The notes under the pieces: generated by a model
What the model was told of the DNA's origin: nothing
What the model saw: only the letters and a program-made list of their open reading frames with translations
Database searches by the model: none
Translations under genes and position numbers: made by a program
In this document: positions 4,110-13,595 of the stretch, in pieces
Position numbering within the stretch: the stretch's first letter is position 1
How the letters are laid out: every line of letters starts with the position of its first letter
Assembly: GCA_019359695.1 (NCBI GenBank)
Contig: JAHHGV010000036.1
Coordinates: 1 to 64,000, forward strand
Direction: 5' to 3'
Length of the DNA stretch: 64,000 nucleotides
Source: Brasilonema angustatum HA4187-MV1
Lineage (GTDB): Bacteria; Cyanobacteriota; Cyanobacteriia; Cyanobacteriales; Nostocaceae

Positions 4110-5651
4110 ATGGGTAAACTTACCTTGCCACAATTAGAACGCCATCTGTTTTCTGCTGCTGATATTCTGCGGGGTAAGATGGATGCTTCTGAGTTTAAAG
4201 AGTACATCTTTGGGATGCTTTTCCTCAAGCGTGCTTCGGATGTATTTGAACAGCAGTATGAACAGATTTTACAGCAGAATTTGCAAAGGGGACGCTCTTT
4301 TGAAGAAGCGAAAATGAGAGCAGAAAACCCCATGAGTTACAGAGAAACTTTTTTTGTGTCAGAGAAGGCACGGTGGAATTATATTCGTGATGAACTCCAT
4401 AAAAATGTCGCTGATGGACTGAATAAAGCTTTAGCAGCACTGGAGGAAAACAATCAAGCGCTGGCGGGTGTGCTAGGACATATTGATTTTAACCGTCAGG
4501 TGGGAAAAAGTCGTATTCCTGATGCTAAACTGCGCGAACTGATTCAACACTTTAATAAGTATCGTCTGCGAAGTGAAGATTTTGTATTTCCTGATTTGTT
4601 AGGTGCTGCTTATGAGTATTTGATTAAGGAATTTGCTGATTCTGCTGGCAAAAAAGGAGGCGAATTTTATACGCCGCGTGAAGTGGTGCAGTTGATGGTG
4701 CGCCTGTTGAAACCAGAAGCAGGAATGTCTGTTTATGACCCCTGTTGTGGTTCTGGAGGAATGCTTATTCAGGCAAAGCAATATGTGGAAGAATGTGGTG
4801 ATAATGCCAATAATTTACATTTGTGTGGTCAGGATAATAACGGCGGCGTGTGGGCAATTTGTAAGATTAATATGCTGCTGCACGGAATTAGGGATGCAGA
4901 TATTCAAAATGAAGATACTTTACTTAATCCCTTACATCTCAACGATGGGGAACTGATGCGTTTTGAGCGGGTAATTAGCAACCCGCCTTTTTCTCAAAAC
5001 TATAGCCGTAAAGATATAAAATTTTCGGAACGGTTTACATATGGATTTTGTCCGGAAACAGGTAAAAAAGCTGATTTGATGTTTGCCCAGCATATGTTAT
5101 CTGTTCTCAAAAATAATGGGGTGATGGCGACAGTTATGCCACATGGAGTGCTGTTTCGTGGCGGCGAAGAAAAGAAAATTAGAGAAAGTTTTATTAAAAA
5201 TGACAATTTAGAAGCGGTGATTGGTTTGCCGCCCAATTTGTTTTATGGGACTGGTATCCCTGCTTGTATTTTGGTGATGCGTCCTAGTAAGGCAAAACCT
5301 GCTGAACGTCAGAAAAAGGTGTTGTTTATTAATGCTGATGCGGAGTATTATACTGGTCGTGCTCAGAATTATTTGCGACCGGAGCATATTGAAAAGATGA
5401 CTTGGGTGTTTGAAAATTTTGTGTCTTTGCCTGGTTATTCCGCAGTCGTGGATGAAGAAGAATTAGCAGCAAATGATTACAACTGCAATATTCGCCGCTA
5501 TGCTGATAATGCCCCACCACCAGAACCTCATGACGTGCGATCGCATTTATTTGGGGGAATTCCCAAAGCTGAGGTAGAAGCGAAGCGTCCACTTTTAGCG
5601 GCGCATGGGTTTAATTCAAATAGGATTTTAGTGCAAAGGAATGAATTATGA
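4110..5651 (+). CDS. hsdM: type I restriction-modification methyltransferase, N-terminal and catalytic part
   Basis: This is the adenine-N6 DNA methyltransferase of a type I system, which with HsdS modifies the target and with HsdR restricts unmodified DNA. An HsdM N-terminal helical domain is followed by SAM-binding motif I DPCCGSGG near residue 210 and catalytic NPPF near 291. The 513-residue protein stops at a point where long HsdM homologs carry on for about 350 more residues. That missing part is encoded separately at 6224-7300. Its stop overlaps the next start as ATGA. No clear ribosome binding site precedes the ATG at 4110. Confidence 0.92.
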
Positions 5652-6223
5652 CAGTAACTTTACAATTACCCCCTGTTCTCAAACTCAGTGATGAGCAATT
5701 TGAACAACTCGCCACCGCTAACCGAGATTTGCAACTCGAACTTACAGCCAAAGGAGAATTAATTATCATGCCACCCACTGGGGGAGAAACAGGAAGCCGT
5801 AACTTTAATTTATCAGGTCAACTTTGGTTATGGAACCGTCAAAATCGTTTAGGAAAAGCTTTTGATTCCTCTACAGGTTTTCGGTTACCTAACGGTGCAA
5901 CTCGTTCTCCTGATGCGTCTTGGGTGAAGATGGAACGATGGGATGCTTTGAGTGCGGCGCAAAAAAAGAAATTCTTGCCTTTATGTCCCGACTTTGCTGT
6001 AGAACTCGTTTCAGAAAGCGATGAGCTAAAAGATACTCAGGAAAAAATGCACGAGTACATTGCTAATGGGTTGCGTTTGGGTTGGTTGATTAATCCTAAA
6101 AATCAGCAAGTAGAAATTTATTACCCTAACCAAGAAGTGAAAATTTTACAATCTCCCGCGACTTTATCGGGTGAAGATGTTTTACCAGGATTTGTTTTAG
6201 ATTTGCAGCCGATTTTTGAATAA
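5648..6223 (+). CDS. Uma2-family (DUF820) putative endonuclease
   Basis: A 191-residue member of the Uma2 family, a PD-(D/E)XK nuclease fold very abundant in cyanobacteria. Visible markers are [17 protein letters not shown] and the conserved [13 protein letters not shown] segment. Its activity is not established for most members. The ATG overlaps the hsdM stop by four bases, and its TAA touches the ATG of the hsdM C-terminal fragment. It is therefore inserted exactly between two halves of what is one gene in relatives, and must be co-translated with them. Confidence 0.9.
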
Positions 6224-7300
6224 ATGACAGATTATTTAGATTTTATTCCCGCGATTACCGAAAGAGGACAGATAAAAACTTTTATCGAATTAGATGCAGG
6301 CATTCAGCACCAAGAAGGTAAGTTGATGAGTGTGTTTGCTGCTTGGTGGCAGATGCACTCACCTTCTTTGGGTGAGTTGCCGAAAACGAAAAAAGTGATG
6401 GAACTCCGTGCTGAATTTTTGAGTTCTTTTGTGGATAGTTTGGCACCTGTGGGTTTACTTGATCGTTTTAAGGTGGCGGGTGTGGTTGCGAGTTGGTGGG
6501 ATGAGGTGAAGTATGAATTGCGAACTTTATCTGAGTCAGATTTTAGCGGTTTAGTTGATAGTTGGGTGGATACAATTAAAGATGCCTTGGAACAAGATGA
6601 TGAAGAGAAGAAAAGTAAGCCTTTATTTGACCCCTTAAATCATAAATTAGTCGTGCGGTTGATGCTGGGTTATTTGACGGAAATTGCCACAGTTGAGGCG
6701 AGTATTGCCGAATTAGAACAGCAGAAAGAAGCCTTTGAACGCCCAGAAGAAGCGGAGGCGGAAGCTGGGGAAGAAGGTGAGGAAGAAGCAGAAGCGGTTA
6801 ATATTGTCAAGGAATTAGACACAAAGCTTAAGCATCTGAAAAATTTGGTTAAAGAGCCGAAGAAGGAACTCAAGATTTTAAAGAAGTCGCCTTTATTGAA
6901 TGCAGATAAATTTGCTGACTTTGAGGCGTTGATTAAGCAGACTGAAGTAGAAATTGCTGAGATTGAAGCACAACTAGAACCATTAAAGGAAATTACTAAG
7001 CAACTGAAGGAAGCTAAGGCAAAATTGAGGACGCTCAAAAAGGAATTGGTAAAGCGTTTGGATGTTGCGCGTGCGGTGTTGACAAATGAAGAATGTCGGG
7101 GTTTGGTGTTAGGAATTTTTAAGGATGGCTTAATTGTTGAATTAGAGAGATATGTCACCGCGCACCGTCAGCAGGTGATTGCAGCGGTAGAGAATTGGTG
7201 GGATAAGTATCGCGTGACGTTGCAGAATATTGAGACGGAACGCGATGCAGCGGCGAAGCGGTTGAGTGAGTTTTTACAGGGGTTGGGGTATATAAGTTGA
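6224..7300 (+). CDS. HsdM C-terminal extension, now a separate protein
   Basis: This 358-residue protein opens with YLDFIPAITERGQIK and contains LLDRFKVAGVVASWW. I recognise these segments from the C-terminal half of long (about 850 residue) HsdM proteins, where they directly follow the segment that ends the 513-residue ORF upstream. Residues about 160-260 are highly charged and predicted coiled coil (runs of E, then K), as expected for contact with HsdS or HsdR. Whether the two parts reassemble is inference. Its 3' end is duplicated at 7907-7936. Confidence 0.75.
   Translation: MTDYLDFIPAITERGQIKTFIELDAGIQHQEGKLMSVFAAWWQMHSPSLGELPKTKKVMELRAEFLSSFVDSLAPVGLLDRFKVAGVVASWWDEVKYELRTLSESDFSGLVDSWVDTIKDALEQDDEEKKSKPLFDPLNHKLVVRLMLGYLTEIATVEASIAELEQQKEAFERPEEAEAEAGEEGEEEAEAVNIVKELDTKLKHLKNLVKEPKKELKILKKSPLLNADKFADFEALIKQTEVEIAEIEAQLEPLKEITKQLKEAKAKLRTLKKELVKRLDVARAVLTNEECRGLVLGIFKDGLIVELERYVTAHRQQVIAAVENWWDKYRVTLQNIETERDAAAKRLSEFLQGLGYIS
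7262..7291 (+). repeat. 30-bp direct repeat, left copy (hsdM 3' end)
   Basis: It matches 7907-7936 at 28 of 30 positions, including 22 identical bases at its right end. This copy is in frame and encodes LSEFLQGLGY of the HsdM C-terminal protein. Confidence 0.95.
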
Positions 7301-7310
7301 GGTGTTAACA

Positions 7311-7910
7311 ATGGCTTATAGTGACTTTACATTAAGTAAATTTAAAAAGAATTTCAACATTCGTATTGATGAAGAAGTTGATTTATTCGCAAACGTAGAA
7401 CCTGTACAAGTCAGTGATAAGCTAATAACGAATTTAGAAGAAACAACTGAACTGGCTTTAGCAATTAATACCGAAAAAGCACGTTCCGAAATGATTATTA
7501 CACCAATATTATTAGAGGTGAGACGTCAGGCTAATTATCAGATTAGTTTATTTTCTGGAACAGATTTTAATGTTGATGCTGAGAAAGGACTGAATGGTTA
7601 TTGTGATTTTATCATCAGTCGTTCTAAAGAACAATTAACAATTAATGCACCTGTGGTGATTATTGTAGAAGCGAAAAATGAAAATATTAAAGGCGGATTA
7701 GGTCAATGTGCAGCGGCGATGTTGGCAGCACAATTGTTTAACCAAGAAGAAGGAAATGAAATTAAAACTATTTATGGTGCAGTGACAACGGGAGATATTT
7801 GGAAGTTTTTGAAGTTACAAGGTTCTGATGTGTTTATTGATTTGAATAATTATTATATTAAGGAGATAAATAAGATTTTGGGTGTTTTATCTCAGGGTGT
7901 TCAGATTTGA
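7311..7910 (+). CDS. PD-(D/E)XK nuclease-like protein, inserted in the restriction-modification operon
   Basis: A 199-residue protein of a family common in cyanobacteria. The segment CDFIISR and then VVIIVEAKNE looks like the D...ExK core of a PD-(D/E)XK nuclease fold. A GGLGQCAAAML helix follows. I chose the ATG at 7311, preceded by GAGG at proper distance, over a GTG at 7302. It lies between the HsdM C-terminal gene and hsdS and is framed by the 30-bp duplication, so it entered later than the rest. Nuclease activity is inferred from fold motifs only. Confidence 0.7.
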   Translation: MAYSDFTLSKFKKNFNIRIDEEVDLFANVEPVQVSDKLITNLEETTELALAINTEKARSEMIITPILLEVRRQANYQISLFSGTDFNVDAEKGLNGYCDFIISRSKEQLTINAPVVIIVEAKNENIKGGLGQCAAAMLAAQLFNQEEGNEIKTIYGAVTTGDIWKFLKLQGSDVFIDLNNYYIKEINKILGVLSQGVQI

Positions 7911-7936
7911 GGAAGTTTTTACAGGGGTTGGGGTAT
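7907..7936 (+). repeat. 30-bp direct repeat, right copy (relic of hsdM 3' end)
   Basis: In the old hsdM frame this copy reads LRKFLQGLGYA followed by TGA. That stop overlaps the hsdS start as ATGCGTGA, so this is likely the original hsdM-hsdS junction. Confidence 0.9.
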
Positions 7937-9263
7937 GCGTGAGGTTTTGGTTAAGGTTGAGGAGTTTAAGGATTCACCTGTTGGGAGGATTCCAGAGGAT
8001 TGGGATGTAAAAACTCTTGGTGAGTTAGGTACTTTTCAGAATGGACTCAACAAGGGTAAAAAAGATTTTGGCTTTGGTACTAAGTTCGTAAATATTTTAG
8101 ATGTATATACACCGCATATTAATATAGAGAAATTAGGTCGAATGAATGCTAACCAGTCAGAAATAGCTTCTTATCAACTAGAAATAGGAGACATTTTACT
8201 TGACCGTTCGTCAGTTAAGTTAGAGGGTGTTGGTTATCCAACTGTTTTTGAAGGTGCAGATGAACCAGTAATATTTTGCGGATTTATTATTCGCTTTAGA
8301 TTATCAACTTCTACTGTTAAGCCAAGATTTCTTTGTGAAATGATGCGGGACGAGTTTTTTCGTAACCGTGTCTTTCAAATTGCCACAAGAAGCGCTAATG
8401 TTAATGTTAATCAAGAACAGTTAACTAAGCTCTGGGTAACACTTCCATCTGTATTTAAGCAAGAAAAAATTATTGAAATTTTGGACACGGTGGATGATGC
8501 GATCGCCCACACCTCCTCCCTCATTACAAAACTTAAACAAATCAAAGCTGGGCTGCTGCACGACTTGCTCACACGCGGGTTAGATGAGAATGGACAGTTG
8601 AGGGATGCAGAGGCGCATCCTGAAGAGTTTAAAGATTCGGTGTTGGGACGAATTCCCAAGGAGTGGGAGATTAGGACTTGTGAATCCGTTTGTAGAGAAA
8701 TAGTTGTTGGAATTGTTATCAAACCATCACAGTATTACAAGCCCTCTGGAGTTCCTGTATTCCGTTCTGCAAATGTTCGTGAAGCAGGTTTAGATCCTTC
8801 AGACTTAGTATTTATGTCTGAGCAATCAAACCGAATACTTGCTAAAAGTATGATTCGTACAGGAGACGTGCTTACCGTTCGTACTGGCTACCCAGGAACA
8901 TCTTGTGTTGTTTCTCCTGACTTTGATGGTGCTAATTGCGTTGATATTATTATTTCTCGACCAAGTGCAGAAATTAATTCAGCATTTCTTGCAACGTGGA
9001 TTAATTCAGATTTTGGAAAAGGTCAAGTTCTTCGTGTGCAAGGTGGATTAGCTCAACAGCACTTTAATGTCGGAGAGCTTCAAAAGTTACTGATAGCCAA
9101 ACCTTCAATTGAAGAACAAAGGGCAATTCAAACAATACTCGACACCCACAACATCCGCATCCGCAAAGAAGAAGCCTACCTTAACAAGCTCAAACTCCAA
9201 AAACAAGGACTAATGCACGACTTATTAACTGGAAAAGTGCGAGTCAAGAATACCAAAAATTAG
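7935..9263 (+). CDS. hsdS: type I restriction-modification specificity subunit
   Basis: HsdS recognises the bipartite DNA target and bridges two HsdM. The 442-residue protein has the usual two target-recognition domains, each introduced by a similar phrase (GRIPEDWD near residue 16 and GRIPKEWE near 238). Each is followed by a helical conserved region, ending in AGLLHDLLTRG and QGLMHDLLTGK. The two halves differ in sequence, so the target should be asymmetric and bipartite. The ATG at 7935 sits inside the duplicated 30-bp block. The target sequence cannot be derived here. Confidence 0.95.
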   Translation: MREVLVKVEEFKDSPVGRIPEDWDVKTLGELGTFQNGLNKGKKDFGFGTKFVNILDVYTPHINIEKLGRMNANQSEIASYQLEIGDILLDRSSVKLEGVGYPTVFEGADEPVIFCGFIIRFRLSTSTVKPRFLCEMMRDEFFRNRVFQIATRSANVNVNQEQLTKLWVTLPSVFKQEKIIEILDTVDDAIAHTSSLITKLKQIKAGLLHDLLTRGLDENGQLRDAEAHPEEFKDSVLGRIPKEWEIRTCESVCREIVVGIVIKPSQYYKPSGVPVFRSANVREAGLDPSDLVFMSEQSNRILAKSMIRTGDVLTVRTGYPGTSCVVSPDFDGANCVDIIISRPSAEINSAFLATWINSDFGKGQVLRVQGGLAQQHFNVGELQKLLIAKPSIEEQRAIQTILDTHNIRIRKEEAYLNKLKLQKQGLMHDLLTGKVRVKNTKN

Positions 9264-9308: not shown

Positions 9309-9566
9309 TCATTTCTTTTGCTGGCGGAACCGTTGCATGAGTTGAGCGCGTTTTTGTTCCCACCACTCATCTGTCACTTCAATCGGTTCACCGCTTTCCA
9401 AACCCTCCAACAACATCGCCTCTAACTTCTGTTGATCTGCTTTCTTTTGGGCTTGGCGAAGGAGATCGCGGATGTACTCACTCGCAGTGCTATAGCCACC
9501 TTTTGCAACCTGCTCATCAATAAAAGCTCGCATTGAATCAGGTAAAGAGATGTTGAGTGTTGTCAT
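9309..9566 (-). CDS. ParD-family antitoxin, orphan
   Basis: An 85-residue ribbon-helix-helix antitoxin starting MTTLNISLPDSMRAFIDEQV, with the ParD signature GGYSTASEYIRDLLR. The start at 9566 is fixed by AGGAGG about 10 bases upstream, although the frame stays open further. ParD normally neutralises a ParE toxin encoded just downstream and represses its own promoter. No ParE follows, since hsdS lies convergently 45 bases away. The gene is antisense within the restriction-modification operon, between hsdS and hsdR. Its promoter region overlaps the hsdR leader, so it could influence hsdR expression. Confidence 0.85.
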   Translation of the reverse strand: MTTLNISLPDSMRAFIDEQVAKGGYSTASEYIRDLLRQAQKKADQQKLEAMLLEGLESGEPIEVTDEWWEQKRAQLMQRFRQQKK

Positions 9567-9705
9567 AGATGGTTTACCTCCTAGATTTAATATATATGTA
9601 TATTGGCAAGAATTAGTAATTTCTACCAATCTGGCGGCTTCCTCTTCAAGAAACAGTTGAGCCTGGTGCATGATAGATATATCGCTGCATGTAAAAACTG
9701 CCACC

Positions 9706-12700
9706 ATGCCACAATCAACCCCAGAATATATCCATGTAGAAAAGCCTACCATTGACCAACTTATTAGCATGGGTTGGCAGCATATCGAAGGCGATAAATT
9801 CAACTCCCAAATCACCGAACGCGAAAACTTCAAACAAGTTCTGCTCATCCAACGCTTGAAAACAGTCATCAAACGCATCAACCTAGATGACAATCGTAAT
9901 TCTTGGCTTGATGATATCCAAGTCAACGCAGTGGTGAGTCAACTTGAGCGTTTAGCAGCATCAAGACTGATGGAAGCAAATAAAGCTGCTACAGAATTAC
10001 TGCTTTTTGGCACTACTGTTTTAGGAAAAGACGGCAAACAGCACACAGTCCACTATATTGATTTTGAGCATCCTGAAAAGAACGACTTTCTGGCAATCAA
10101 TCAATATCGAGTAGATCCCCTTTGGATAACAGCAGATAAAGGTTTTATCGTTCCTGATGTTGTGCTGTTCGTCAACGGTATCCCGCTTGTCGTCGTTGAG
10201 TGCAAAAGTCCCAACTTAGATAATCCCATCACTGCAGCAATTAACGACTTGTTGCAATACTCGAACCAACGTAATAGCACTCAACCAGAAGGCGCAGAAA
10301 AACTATTTCATTACAACTTGTTAATGATAGCCGCTTCTAGAGGACGGGCGGTGGCGGGTGCAGTGGGTGCAAACCATGAGTATTATGTGGAGTGGAAGGA
10401 TACCATACCCCGCACTCAAGCCGAGATAGCCGCAGAGTTAGGCGTTTCTCAAGTCAATACCCGACAAATGCTGATCGCCGGAATGCTGAACCCTGCGAAT
10501 CTCCTCGATATCCTACGAAACTTTACCTTATATGAAACCAGTGGCGGACGCACAACTAAAATTGTCTCCCGTTACCAACAATATCGCGCAGTTTTGGAAG
10601 CAATTGCTCGACTGCAACACAATCAAACCCGTTCCCAACACAGTACAGATGATCAACGCGGTGGTATTATCTGGCATACTCAAGGTGCTGGCAAAAGCCT
10701 GACTATGATTTACCTAATTCGGAAAATCCGCACGATTCGCGAATTACGCCGCTTCAAGATAGTTGTCGTGACTGATCGCACCGATTTAGAAAAGCAACTT
10801 TCTGATACTGCTGTTCTCTCAGGCGAACCGTTGCAGATAGCGAAAAAAGTCAAAAAGCTAGAACAATTCCTGCAACAACCAGGTGCAGGCTTAGTTTTCG
10901 GAATGATTCAGAAATTCAAAGGTGGCGAAGATTCCGAACAAGAGGAACAGCCGGAAAAAATGCCAAAAAGCCTCAACCCTTCCGAAGATATCCTAGTACT
11001 CATCGACGAAGCGCACCGTTCTCACGCCAGCACTCTCCACACCAATTTACTCGAAGCTTTACCCAATTGTGTCCGCATTGGTTTTACTGGTACTCCCATC
11101 GTCACATCTGCCAAAAAAACCACCAAGCAAATATTTGGTTCCTTCATCGATCAGTACAACATCCGTCAGTCTCAAGAAGACGGTGTTACCTTACCCATCC
11201 TCTACGAAGGTTTAGAAGCCAGGGGTGCAGTCACCCAAGGGGACGATTTAGATAAACTTTTTGAAATCATCTTTGCAGACAAAACCCCAGAAGAACGGGC
11301 GCAGATAAAAACTAGATACGCTACCAAAACCCAAGTTGCAGAAGCACGCGAACTCATTAAAGCCAAAGCTAAAAATATGCTACGCCACTATGTTGAGCGT
11401 ATTCTACCCGGAAGCTTCAAGGCGCAAGTCGTCGCCCCTAGCCGTCGCGCTGCTGTTCGTTACTACGGTGCATTTGTCGAAGCACAGCAGGAACTCGTGC
11501 AACAACTAGAAACTCGCGCCCCCATTCTGCGAAGTCTCGACTCAGAAGTTTTAGAATCTGTGAATGAAGAAACGCGCTTTTTAGCCCAAGCACTTCCCTA
11601 TTTAGAAACCATCCGCCGTTTAGAATTTGGCGTTATCATCTCTGGAGATAAAAATGATGACTCCAGTTGGGAAGAGTGGACAAATAAAAGTAAGCAAGAA
11701 GCACGCATTGAACGCTTTAAAAAATCTCTAGTAAATTCTGACTCCACAAAACAGGATAGTCTCGCTTTCTTAATTGTCAAAAGTATGTTGCTGGTTGGTT
11801 TTAACGCTCCCAACGAACAAGTTTTATATTTAGACAGGGGGATGAAAGAATATGAATTGTTGCAGGCAATCGCCCGCGTGAACCGCATCTATAACGATAC
11901 CAAAAAATATGGCTTAGTCGTCGATTACTACGGTGTCAACCTTGCAGAAGCCTTAGCAATTTACGACGAAGTCGATACAGAATCAGCCTGGTTTGATATT
12001 GCGGACGAAATTCCCAAATTAGGCGATCGCCATCAGCGAGTTATCAATTTATTCACTGCAAACGGCTGCACAATAGATGACGTAGATGCTTGTGTAGACA
12101 TACTGCGAGATGAACGCCTGAGAGTAGAATTCAACGAATTTTTGAAAGACTTCATCGATACCCTTGATATTATTCTGCCACGACCAGAAGCCCGTCATCC
12201 CTATAATTTTGTTAAGGATGCTAAAAAACTCGGTTTTATAAAAAAATCTGTTGCAGACCTTTATCGAGATGAAAAACTTAATATAGTCACAGCCAAAGAA
12301 AAGGTTAGATCATTAATTGACCAATACATTGAAGCACAGGGGATTGACTTAAAAGTTCCACCAATTGATATTCTGTCTTTAAACTTCAAAACCCACGTCC
12401 AGCGCCATCGCTCAATGAAAGTGCAAGCTGCCGAAATGGAATTTGCTGCCCGCCATCACATCAGTATACATTACGATGAAGACCCAGCTTATTACAAAAA
12501 ATTAAGCGCTCAATTAACAGAGATTCTAGAATCTTTTGCCGATAATTGGCTAGAAAAAGTTAATGTCTTGTGGCAATATATCCAAGAAATACAAGCAGGT
12601 CGTTCTACAGATGAAACTGGACTCAACCCGAAAACTCAACTTCCATTTTTTTATATTTTAGCCGAACATTCCACCAAAGAATTAACTCAACTTGCCCAAG

Positions 12701-12900
12701 CGACAAAAGAAATTGTCGAACACATCCGCCAAGATATTCGTCGAGTGAATTGGGATAGTCTTGTCAGTCAAGAAGACTTGAGAAAGTGGATAGCAGGTTA
12801 CTTGGATGATCATGATGTCGTGAATTACGACCAATTAGAAATAGTAGCAGAGAAACTTGTGCAACTCGCTCGCCTAAATCGTGATAATTTAATTGCATGA
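9706..12900 (+). CDS. hsdR: type I restriction endonuclease subunit R
   Basis: HsdR is the DNA translocase and nuclease of the complex. Order of domains: a PD-(D/E)XK nuclease (DVVLFVNGIPLVVVECKSP, ExK near residue 163), then SF2 helicase motifs Walker A QGAGKS near 325, LIDEAH near 430 and GFTGTP, then motif VI-like AIARVNR, and a helical C-terminus. I prefer the ATG at 9706 (MPQSTPEY), which fits the usual HsdR N-terminus; the frame also has an ATG at 9670. No good ribosome binding site precedes either. It ends by overlapping the next gene as ATGA. Confidence 0.95.
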   Translation: MPQSTPEYIHVEKPTIDQLISMGWQHIEGDKFNSQITERENFKQVLLIQRLKTVIKRINLDDNRNSWLDDIQVNAVVSQLERLAASRLMEANKAATELLLFGTTVLGKDGKQHTVHYIDFEHPEKNDFLAINQYRVDPLWITADKGFIVPDVVLFVNGIPLVVVECKSPNLDNPITAAINDLLQYSNQRNSTQPEGAEKLFHYNLLMIAASRGRAVAGAVGANHEYYVEWKDTIPRTQAEIAAELGVSQVNTRQMLIAGMLNPANLLDILRNFTLYETSGGRTTKIVSRYQQYRAVLEAIARLQHNQTRSQHSTDDQRGGIIWHTQGAGKSLTMIYLIRKIRTIRELRRFKIVVVTDRTDLEKQLSDTAVLSGEPLQIAKKVKKLEQFLQQPGAGLVFGMIQKFKGGEDSEQEEQPEKMPKSLNPSEDILVLIDEAHRSHASTLHTNLLEALPNCVRIGFTGTPIVTSAKKTTKQIFGSFIDQYNIRQSQEDGVTLPILYEGLEARGAVTQGDDLDKLFEIIFADKTPEERAQIKTRYATKTQVAEARELIKAKAKNMLRHYVERILPGSFKAQVVAPSRRAAVRYYGAFVEAQQELVQQLETRAPILRSLDSEVLESVNEETRFLAQALPYLETIRRLEFGVIISGDKNDDSSWEEWTNKSKQEARIERFKKSLVNSDSTKQDSLAFLIVKSMLLVGFNAPNEQVLYLDRGMKEYELLQAIARVNRIYNDTKKYGLVVDYYGVNLAEALAIYDEVDTESAWFDIADEIPKLGDRHQRVINLFTANGCTIDDVDACVDILRDERLRVEFNEFLKDFIDTLDIILPRPEARHPYNFVKDAKKLGFIKKSVADLYRDEKLNIVTAKEKVRSLIDQYIEAQGIDLKVPPIDILSLNFKTHVQRHRSMKVQAAEMEFAARHHISIHYDEDPAYYKKLSAQLTEILESFADNWLEKVNVLWQYIQEIQAGRSTDETGLNPKTQLPFFYILAEHSTKELTQLAQATKEIVEHIRQDIRRVNWDSLVSQEDLRKWIAGYLDDHDVVNYDQLEIVAEKLVQLARLNRDNLIA

Positions 12901-13595
12901 CAACTATCACCTTTGGCGAACTGAATTTTGAATTACGCCACAGTTCTAAACGTCGTACCGTAGGGATTACCGTCGAACGTGACGGTCAATTAATCATAGC
13001 TTCATCTCCAGAAGTGTCAATAGAAACTCTGGAGAAAATAGTCAATGATAAACGCTACTGGATTTACAGCAAACTGTTAAAAAAAGAGTTTTTTAATCCA
13101 CCAGTAGGTGTAAAGGAATACGTTTGCGGTGAAGGATTTTACTACTTAGGACGCAGCTATCGCCTGAAATTAGTAGATAGCGTAAAAGGACAACCACCAC
13201 TCAAGTTTTACCAAAGCCGTTTTGAATTGCAGCGCGAAGAACAGCTACGGGGACGAGAATGTTTTATTCAGTGGTATGGCGATCGCCTGTCCTCAATTTT
13301 AAACACATATCTCGCTGTTTTTGTCAATAAAGTTGATGCTTCTTCCCGCTCAGTACAGGTACGCGAATTAGGCTACCGTTGGGGTTCCTGCGGACACAAG
13401 GGAGATTTATATTTCCACTGGCGAGTGGCGATGCTACCGCGTCCCATGATTGAGTATGTGGTGGTTCATGAGCTGGTGCATCTGATTGAACCAAATCATT
13501 CCAATCAGTTTTGGGATAGAGTGCAGCGTATTGTGCCGGATTATTTGGAAAGGAAGCGGTGGTTAGCTGAGAATGGGGCGAGTTATGACCTTTAG
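12897..13595 (+). CDS. YgjP/SprT-like zinc metallopeptidase (DUF45)
   Basis: A 232-residue protein with the zinc-binding motif HELVHLIEPNH near residue 190, preceded by RWGSC, the signature of the YgjP (M48-related) family. Such genes are frequent partners of type I restriction-modification operons. The four-base overlap with hsdR indicates translational coupling. The role is unknown; processing of the complex or of damaged protein-DNA adducts is only a guess. It is the last gene of the operon, followed by a short palindromic repeat near 13632. Confidence 0.88.
   Translation: MTTITFGELNFELRHSSKRRTVGITVERDGQLIIASSPEVSIETLEKIVNDKRYWIYSKLLKKEFFNPPVGVKEYVCGEGFYYLGRSYRLKLVDSVKGQPPLKFYQSRFELQREEQLRGRECFIQWYGDRLSSILNTYLAVFVNKVDASSRSVQVRELGYRWGSCGHKGDLYFHWRVAMLPRPMIEYVVVHELVHLIEPNHSNQFWDRVQRIVPDYLERKRWLAENGASYDL

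Follow-up and report, generated by a model that had tools for sequence, protein, structure and literature searches.

Repeated occupation by Uma2-family genes of the seam in a long-split hsdM of cyanobacterial type I restriction-modification operons

The window, a 64,000-nucleotide stretch of Brasilonema angustatum HA4187-MV1 (contig JAHHGV010000036.1), carried genes for HsdM, HsdS and HsdR together on its forward strand, with the methyltransferase subunit encoded in two parts. The N-terminal half of hsdM (4110–5651, 513 aa) had HsdM_N and N6_Mtase domains (PF12161, PF02384) and contained the strings DPCCGSGGM and NPPF, which we take to be the SAM and NPPF motifs of HsdM. A Shine-Dalgarno-like AAAGGA at the end of hsdM (5635–5640) preceded a gene for a Uma2-family PD-(D/E)XK nuclease-like protein of 191 aa (5648–6223; PF05685), which was followed by the C-terminal half of hsdM, termed HsdM-C (6224–7300, 358 aa). 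Downstream lay a second cargo gene at the seam between HsdM-C and hsdS (7302–7910), hsdS itself (7935–9263, 442 aa; PF01420), hsdR (9670–12900; PF04313, PF18766, PF22679), and a YgjP-like/SprT-family metallopeptidase gene (12897–13595; PF01863) that occupied the same position in relatives. HsdR was 1076 aa long by its first start, and the match of many relatives began at residue 13 of this form. All genes of the operon were open and equal in length to those of relatives. By its gene content the locus is a type I restriction-modification operon, for which ATP-dependent restriction and bipartite m6A methylation are predicted.

The second cargo gene matched the PD_DExK model PDLC01472 (E 1.3e-54) and was without a significant Pfam match; it was 97% identical in the Brasilonema bromeliae locus L085 and 91% identical in L037/L089, with no match in L087. 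In L031 and L032, HsdM-C and hsdS overlapped by 8 nt. The gap between hsdS and hsdR held a ParD-like antitoxin gene (PF03693) on the reverse strand of the window (9312–9563), DarT and macro-domain genes in L036 (5976–7729), and a 366-bp DarT-family gene with a reverse-transcriptase gene in L031 (11438–13452), on a plasmid of Nostoc C052. ORFs resembling the DarT and macro-domain genes of L036 were seen by eye in L042 and L044, and a macro-domain-like ORF in L039.

Residues 3–512 of HsdM covered positions 2–531 of the PADLOC model PDLC03031 (length 834) and residues 3–357 of the 358-aa protein covered positions 532–834, so that the two halves fit end to end. The claim of the sequence-only reading that the missing part of HsdM is encoded after Uma2 was therefore borne out, with correct ORF coordinates and a single HsdM profile spanned; both halves were homologous to and collinear with long fused HsdM, as in split HsdM of the M.Ssp6803V kind. 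The junctions were also as it had described them, the ATG of Uma2 overlapping the TGA of hsdM and its TAA abutting the next ATG, and the gene was fitted into the seam with neither reading frame broken. The repeat ATGACAG, reported from both junctions (5648 and 6224), is real, GAAT preceding it by one and two bases respectively, and is weak evidence for a target duplication because six copies occurred on the forward strand of the window and the repeat was not kept at most filled seams. Only L035 and L088 among the other filled seams had a like 7-base repeat (ATGACTG at both places), and starts elsewhere read ATGACTG/ATGAATG (L037), ATGAACA/ATGGATT (L039) and ATGATGA/ATGGATT (L038). Target-site duplication was thus not supported, and ATGACAG appears to reflect the context of a start codon, not a duplicated target that is conserved.

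Fused HsdM proteins read VERN-QDYFDF or similar, whereas split ones read VERN-stop and VDYLDF. With this one shared join point, the split has the appearance of a stop followed by a restart within a single linker. HsdM-C was predicted to be all-helical (AlphaFold2 model, mean pLDDT 82). A Foldseek search with it gave no match at E ≤ 0.001, those listed being generic helical or coiled-coil proteins, and a profile search of solved structures yielded 15 weak matches (best E 2e-4), mostly helical or coiled-coil. The model of the fused HsdM of L112 had a mean pLDDT of 66, too weak for the methyltransferase part; its split region (about residue 512) formed a loop between two short strands in a block of pLDDT 82–84, which is weakly consistent with a linker.

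The closest known counterpart was M.Ssp6803V (Slr6095/Slr6096/Slr6097) on plasmid pSYSX of Synechocystis 6803, which likewise has HsdM in two genes, HsdS, and later HsdR with a SprT-like gene, its HsdM halves being 76% and 51% identical to those of the window. Unlike the window it has no gene between the halves, only a 13-nt gap, and its gap between S and R holds other cargo (Fic, HigB, a regulator). Mutants of slr6095 and slr6096 are reported to have lost GGm6AN7TTGG/CCAm6AN7TCC methylation, with polar effects considered possible by the authors, and in mutants of slr6095, slr6096 or slr6097 none of 1261 GGAN7TTGG sites was methylated, versus 1255 in the wild type (PMC7296061). All three proteins are listed in a proteome study (PMC6560206).

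When 388 genomes of the order were searched with HsdM-C, 30 had matches at 1e-5, the window genome included. A scan of a contig collection found 148 loci, of which the best 80 were analyzed, and 18 plasmid records matched, four of which were examined (H1, H2, H5, and H7). HsdM was fused in 61 of these best 80 loci and not fused in 19. Seventeen of the latter were cyanobacterial, and for the other two (L122 and L157, the second at a contig end) no M half was found. Fused homologues also occurred in cyanobacteria (L112, L051). The operon tree comprised 28 distinct cyanobacterial loci in which HsdM-C is a gene of its own, together with 10 fused proteins; likely same-contig duplicates (L041, L089, L094, L096, L104), the matches L021, L022 and L024–L030, the odd locus L054 and additional fused loci were set aside. 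In this tree the split rows formed one branch apart from the fused rows, with support 96/90.

The seam took several states among the 28 loci. Nine were empty, with a 1-nt overlap of the two genes (TAGTG in seven, TAATG in two), nine held Uma2, one held a Uma2 remnant (L092), eight held other sequence (in L043, for instance, a PIN-domain gene), and Synechocystis had its short gap; since the rows are related, nine filled and nine empty seams do not amount to 18 independent observations. The order hsdM-Uma2-HsdM-C, for which a search had been proposed, was thus present in other genomes. In L092 the remnant (9883–10000, 118 bp) had a Uma2-like start and end, and is probably a lost Uma2. The nearest relative found was L085. 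Its seam was empty, and its DNA was about 95% identical to that of the window along hsdM, HsdM-C and the gene that follows. The hsdM of this locus is itself broken at about 8384–8555 by some 170 bp that appeared repeat-rich by eye. Two-gene loci without Uma2 comprised the nearest relatives found (L085, L086, L087), Nostoc C052, Oscillatoria PCC 7112, and others. By this comparison the split is older than the entry of Uma2, and Uma2 did not split hsdM.

Changes in Uma2 state on the operon tree numbered six, or five when only Uma2 and empty rows were counted. A Uma2 tree comprised 10 proteins from the slot and 32 from elsewhere, most of these last being best matches and hence no random sample; slot copies were scattered in it, and a single slot clade was rejected (p-AU 1.6e-68). 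Among groups named after the tree had been seen, the window copy with five Nostoc-group slot copies was rejected as a clade (p 2e-6), as was sisterhood of the tandem copies of L039 (p 0.008), while p was 0.035 for the window copy with L039a and 1e-4 for L038, L039a, L039b and L046 together. Many forks lacked resolution, the placement of the window copy among them, and polyphyly of the slot copies would by itself fit repeated exit as well as repeated entry. Two kinds of HsdM-C start, ATGAnnGATTAy and ATGGATTAT, accompanied Uma2. Tandem Uma2 pairs recurred, within the seam in L039 (2327–3495) and also in G020, G130, G143, G113, G183, and G174.

The window hsdM differed from that of L085 at 73 of 1439 columns, 19 of them in the last 100 bp and 54 in the other 1339, placing a divergent tract at 5534–5633. 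In a suffix scan, none of 2000 permutations was as extreme, the tract boundary itself having been found by scanning. No suffix signal arose in the control pair L085–L087, both empty; that between the window and L087 was weak, 28 of 500 permutations being as extreme. The end of the window hsdM thus has a foreign-looking history, as if Uma2 came by recombination. No donor of the tract was found, the closest Uma2 DNA among those compared being 82% identical (L039), and 50,697 phage records searched with tblastn had no matches at 1e-5, giving no sign of a phage origin.

Relics of the operon were sought beside 99 Uma2 copies located outside the seam, mostly closest matches, by scanning the 120 bp before each with a profile built from the final 48 nt of hsdM in 13 loci without Uma2. 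The upstream sequence exceeded 99% of shuffles in 18 copies, where about one was expected, and every shuffle in 13, whereas controls gave none on the reverse strand and one downstream. Sixteen of the 18 matches sat 4–5 nt before the Uma2 ATG, and the other two (L210 and L245) were placed elsewhere and may be chance. We sort the 16 into eight or nine groups, a grouping of our own with flank comparison limited to nine loci. Downstream, seven of the 99 copies matched a profile of the HsdM-C start, against two and one in the controls. L255, L256, L258 and L259 carried about 100 bp of hsdM, Uma2, and about 50–70 bp of HsdM-C in four genomes of one genus; their flanks were also common, so that they represent one site and not separate landings, and the common ends give no evidence for fixed ends of a mobile unit. 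Part of these flanks was present in L257, which may be the same site. Scattered pieces of the operon surrounded an intact Uma2 in L257, L260 and L267. Such relics do not prove that Uma2 outlasts the operon, because all were found through Uma2 and the sample is biased.

The same relics would fit a history in which Uma2 entered once, in ancient times, and was then repeatedly and cleanly lost, while operons decayed leaving Uma2 behind or spread by horizontal transfer, with no repeated entries. The hsdM-end-like sequences outside the seam, the operon pieces around intact Uma2 genes and the L092 remnant all agree with such a history, and polyphyly of slot copies is also expected if outside copies descend from slot copies. 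However, repeated random deletion would hardly restore the TAGTG and TAATG junctions of the empty loci, the window copy with its recombination tract sits among three empty relatives, the two copies of L039 were rejected as sisters, and Uma2 is accompanied by more than one kind of HsdM-C start. We regard a single entry as unlikely, though with a real share of the probability.

Where the seam was empty, the sequence before HsdM-C formed a duplex with the 16S tail of mean energy −7.5 kcal/mol (−5.6 to −8.8; 9 of 9 loci). In the nine filled loci the corresponding value was −6.0 kcal/mol before Uma2 (−5.5 to −8.2) and −0.7 kcal/mol before HsdM-C (1.3 to −3.0), the window giving −5.9 and −0.9; 15% of random 17-mers of the operon (n = 300) reached −5.5 kcal/mol. 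Cyanobacteria rely little on Shine-Dalgarno-like sites. In seven of the nine filled loci, the window included, Uma2 began a few bases from the hsdM stop, and the site before it is therefore the hsdM-end site that serves HsdM-C in empty loci; in L035 and L090, Uma2 lay 110 and 96 bp past the stop and its site is thus another one. HsdM-C was also without a site behind the L092 remnant and in all seven other-cargo loci tested (two of which, L043 and L101, have uncertain starts), so that loss of the site is not peculiar to Uma2 and follows displacement. The final Uma2 stop abutted the HsdM-C start directly in all nine filled loci, and the particular contribution of Uma2 would be this abutting stop, which would allow reinitiation at HsdM-C. 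In EcoKI, hsdM and hsdS are reported to share a 1-nt overlap with translational coupling (PMC3510504); unlike in the window, this overlap lies between M and S rather than within M, and as described it is without cargo.

The lack of a ribosome-binding-like site of its own before HsdM-C would also suit an insertion that cripples the operon, with HsdM-C hardly made, methylation lost and the locus decaying. M, Uma2 and HsdM-C were all full length in only four of the nine filled loci (the window, L035, L037, and L039), so that filled operons may often be decaying: only the end of hsdM was left in L038, hsdM was broken in L046 and L088, the end of HsdM-C was altered in L093, and L090 ran into a contig end. 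Yet empty loci decay as well (hsdM of L085 and L086), and in the window the genes are open and of relative-like length, with dN/dS against L085 of 0.11 for hsdM (476 codons) and 0.22 for HsdM-C, values that average over the time before insertion too. A crippled operon is accordingly held improbable here.

The window Uma2 scored 168.9 bits against PF05685 (cut-off 27), placing it in the family, and matched structure 1wdj (E 8.8e-36). Its putative active site consists of residues E31, D89, E119 and K133, each conserved in at least 41 of 42 rows. For eight pairs of slot copies, four of them within the Nostoc group and some with synonymous distances near saturation, dN/dS was 0.10–0.26, suggesting that slot copies evolve under constraint. 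The family was abundant, with 55 matches, some of them fragments, in the 8.5-Mb window genome and a match at E 1e-50 or better in 369 of 388 genomes of the order. No established function for Uma2 genes was found in a limited literature search; Makarova et al. treated the family as a likely solo toxin occurring in cassettes of paralogues (PMC2701414). Another Uma2-family gene, sll1222 (DUF820/Uma2), is likewise reported within a conserved cyanobacterial operon, but that of the hydrogenase (hox), and as far as this description goes neither site takeover nor recurrence at an exact seam is part of it (PMC4963859).

A working part or guardian of the restriction system, as PrrC is in EcoprrI, is a role that the recurrent linkage at one place and the conserved putative active site might suggest. 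The gene prrC lies between hsdS and hsdR, a different place from the seam between the HsdM halves. PrrC of the type Ic EcoprrI locus gives a precedent for a nuclease gene embedded in an hsd locus (PMC3506569, PMC12707154); it is an anticodon nuclease with an NTPase domain, whereas Uma2 belongs to the PD-(D/E)XK superfamily, and no PrrC homology was found in the window Uma2, PF05685 being its sole Pfam match at E 1 or better. A third of the split loci (9/28) are empty, and only one of the 55 Uma2 matches of the window genome lies at this seam, which makes a guardian role quite improbable. An insertion of Uma2 that split a previously intact long hsdM, as the sequence-only reading proposed from halves that fit a single profile end to end, was not borne out and is scarcely credible, because empty two-gene seams occur in the nearest relatives found and on deeper branches, and the split rows form one branch.

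We therefore consider likely an account in which the split is old, the seam is a cargo slot, Uma2 entered by recombination, HsdM-C is translationally coupled, and Uma2 has a role of its own. The M subunit of the window operon would be made as two polypeptides, of the M.Ssp6803V kind. Comparison supports an origin of the split in an ancestral cyanobacterium, through a stop and a new start within the linker that joins the methyltransferase part to the helical C-terminal part, the exact mutation being inferred; it also supports the view that the seam afterwards became a place of gain and loss of cargo genes. In the window lineage, the statistical evidence points to Uma2 having come into an empty seam with about 100 bp of a donor hsdM end, most simply by homologous recombination. 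Placed between the hsdM-end site and the HsdM-C start codon, Uma2 can use the ribosome-binding-like site, and by analogy with EcoKI, translation of HsdM-C is probably coupled to the Uma2 stop that abuts its start. Judging from Synechocystis, M, HsdM-C and S should still assemble into a methyltransferase. Uma2 is probably a separate nuclease or solo toxin, whose upkeep may come from its tie to HsdM-C expression; this is the weakest step.

More tentatively, and with doubts slightly larger than those about a single entry, Uma2 might be a single-gene rider that establishes itself at operon seams and takes over the ribosome-binding site of the next gene, such that its loss would lower the output of the neighbour, and copies that outlive an operon might re-enter empty seams through short arms of hsdM end and HsdM-C start, the window copy being one such. 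In length the window tract, about 100 bp, is close to the hsdM arms of L255, L256, L258 and L259.

In a limited search of open-licence literature (titles and abstract starts), no paper on Uma2 in an hsdM seam was found; the split itself is known already from Synechocystis 6803, and the recurrent cargo slot was not found in print. The noteworthy part is thus the repeated occupation of the seam by Uma2 together with the scars elsewhere, rather than the old split. The traffic of Uma2 is readable here, from empty and filled states at about 95% flanking identity and from scars at copies elsewhere. The seam of a split enzyme can serve as a landing place for cargo genes, and site takeover is a simple mechanism by which a small gene could become hard to lose.
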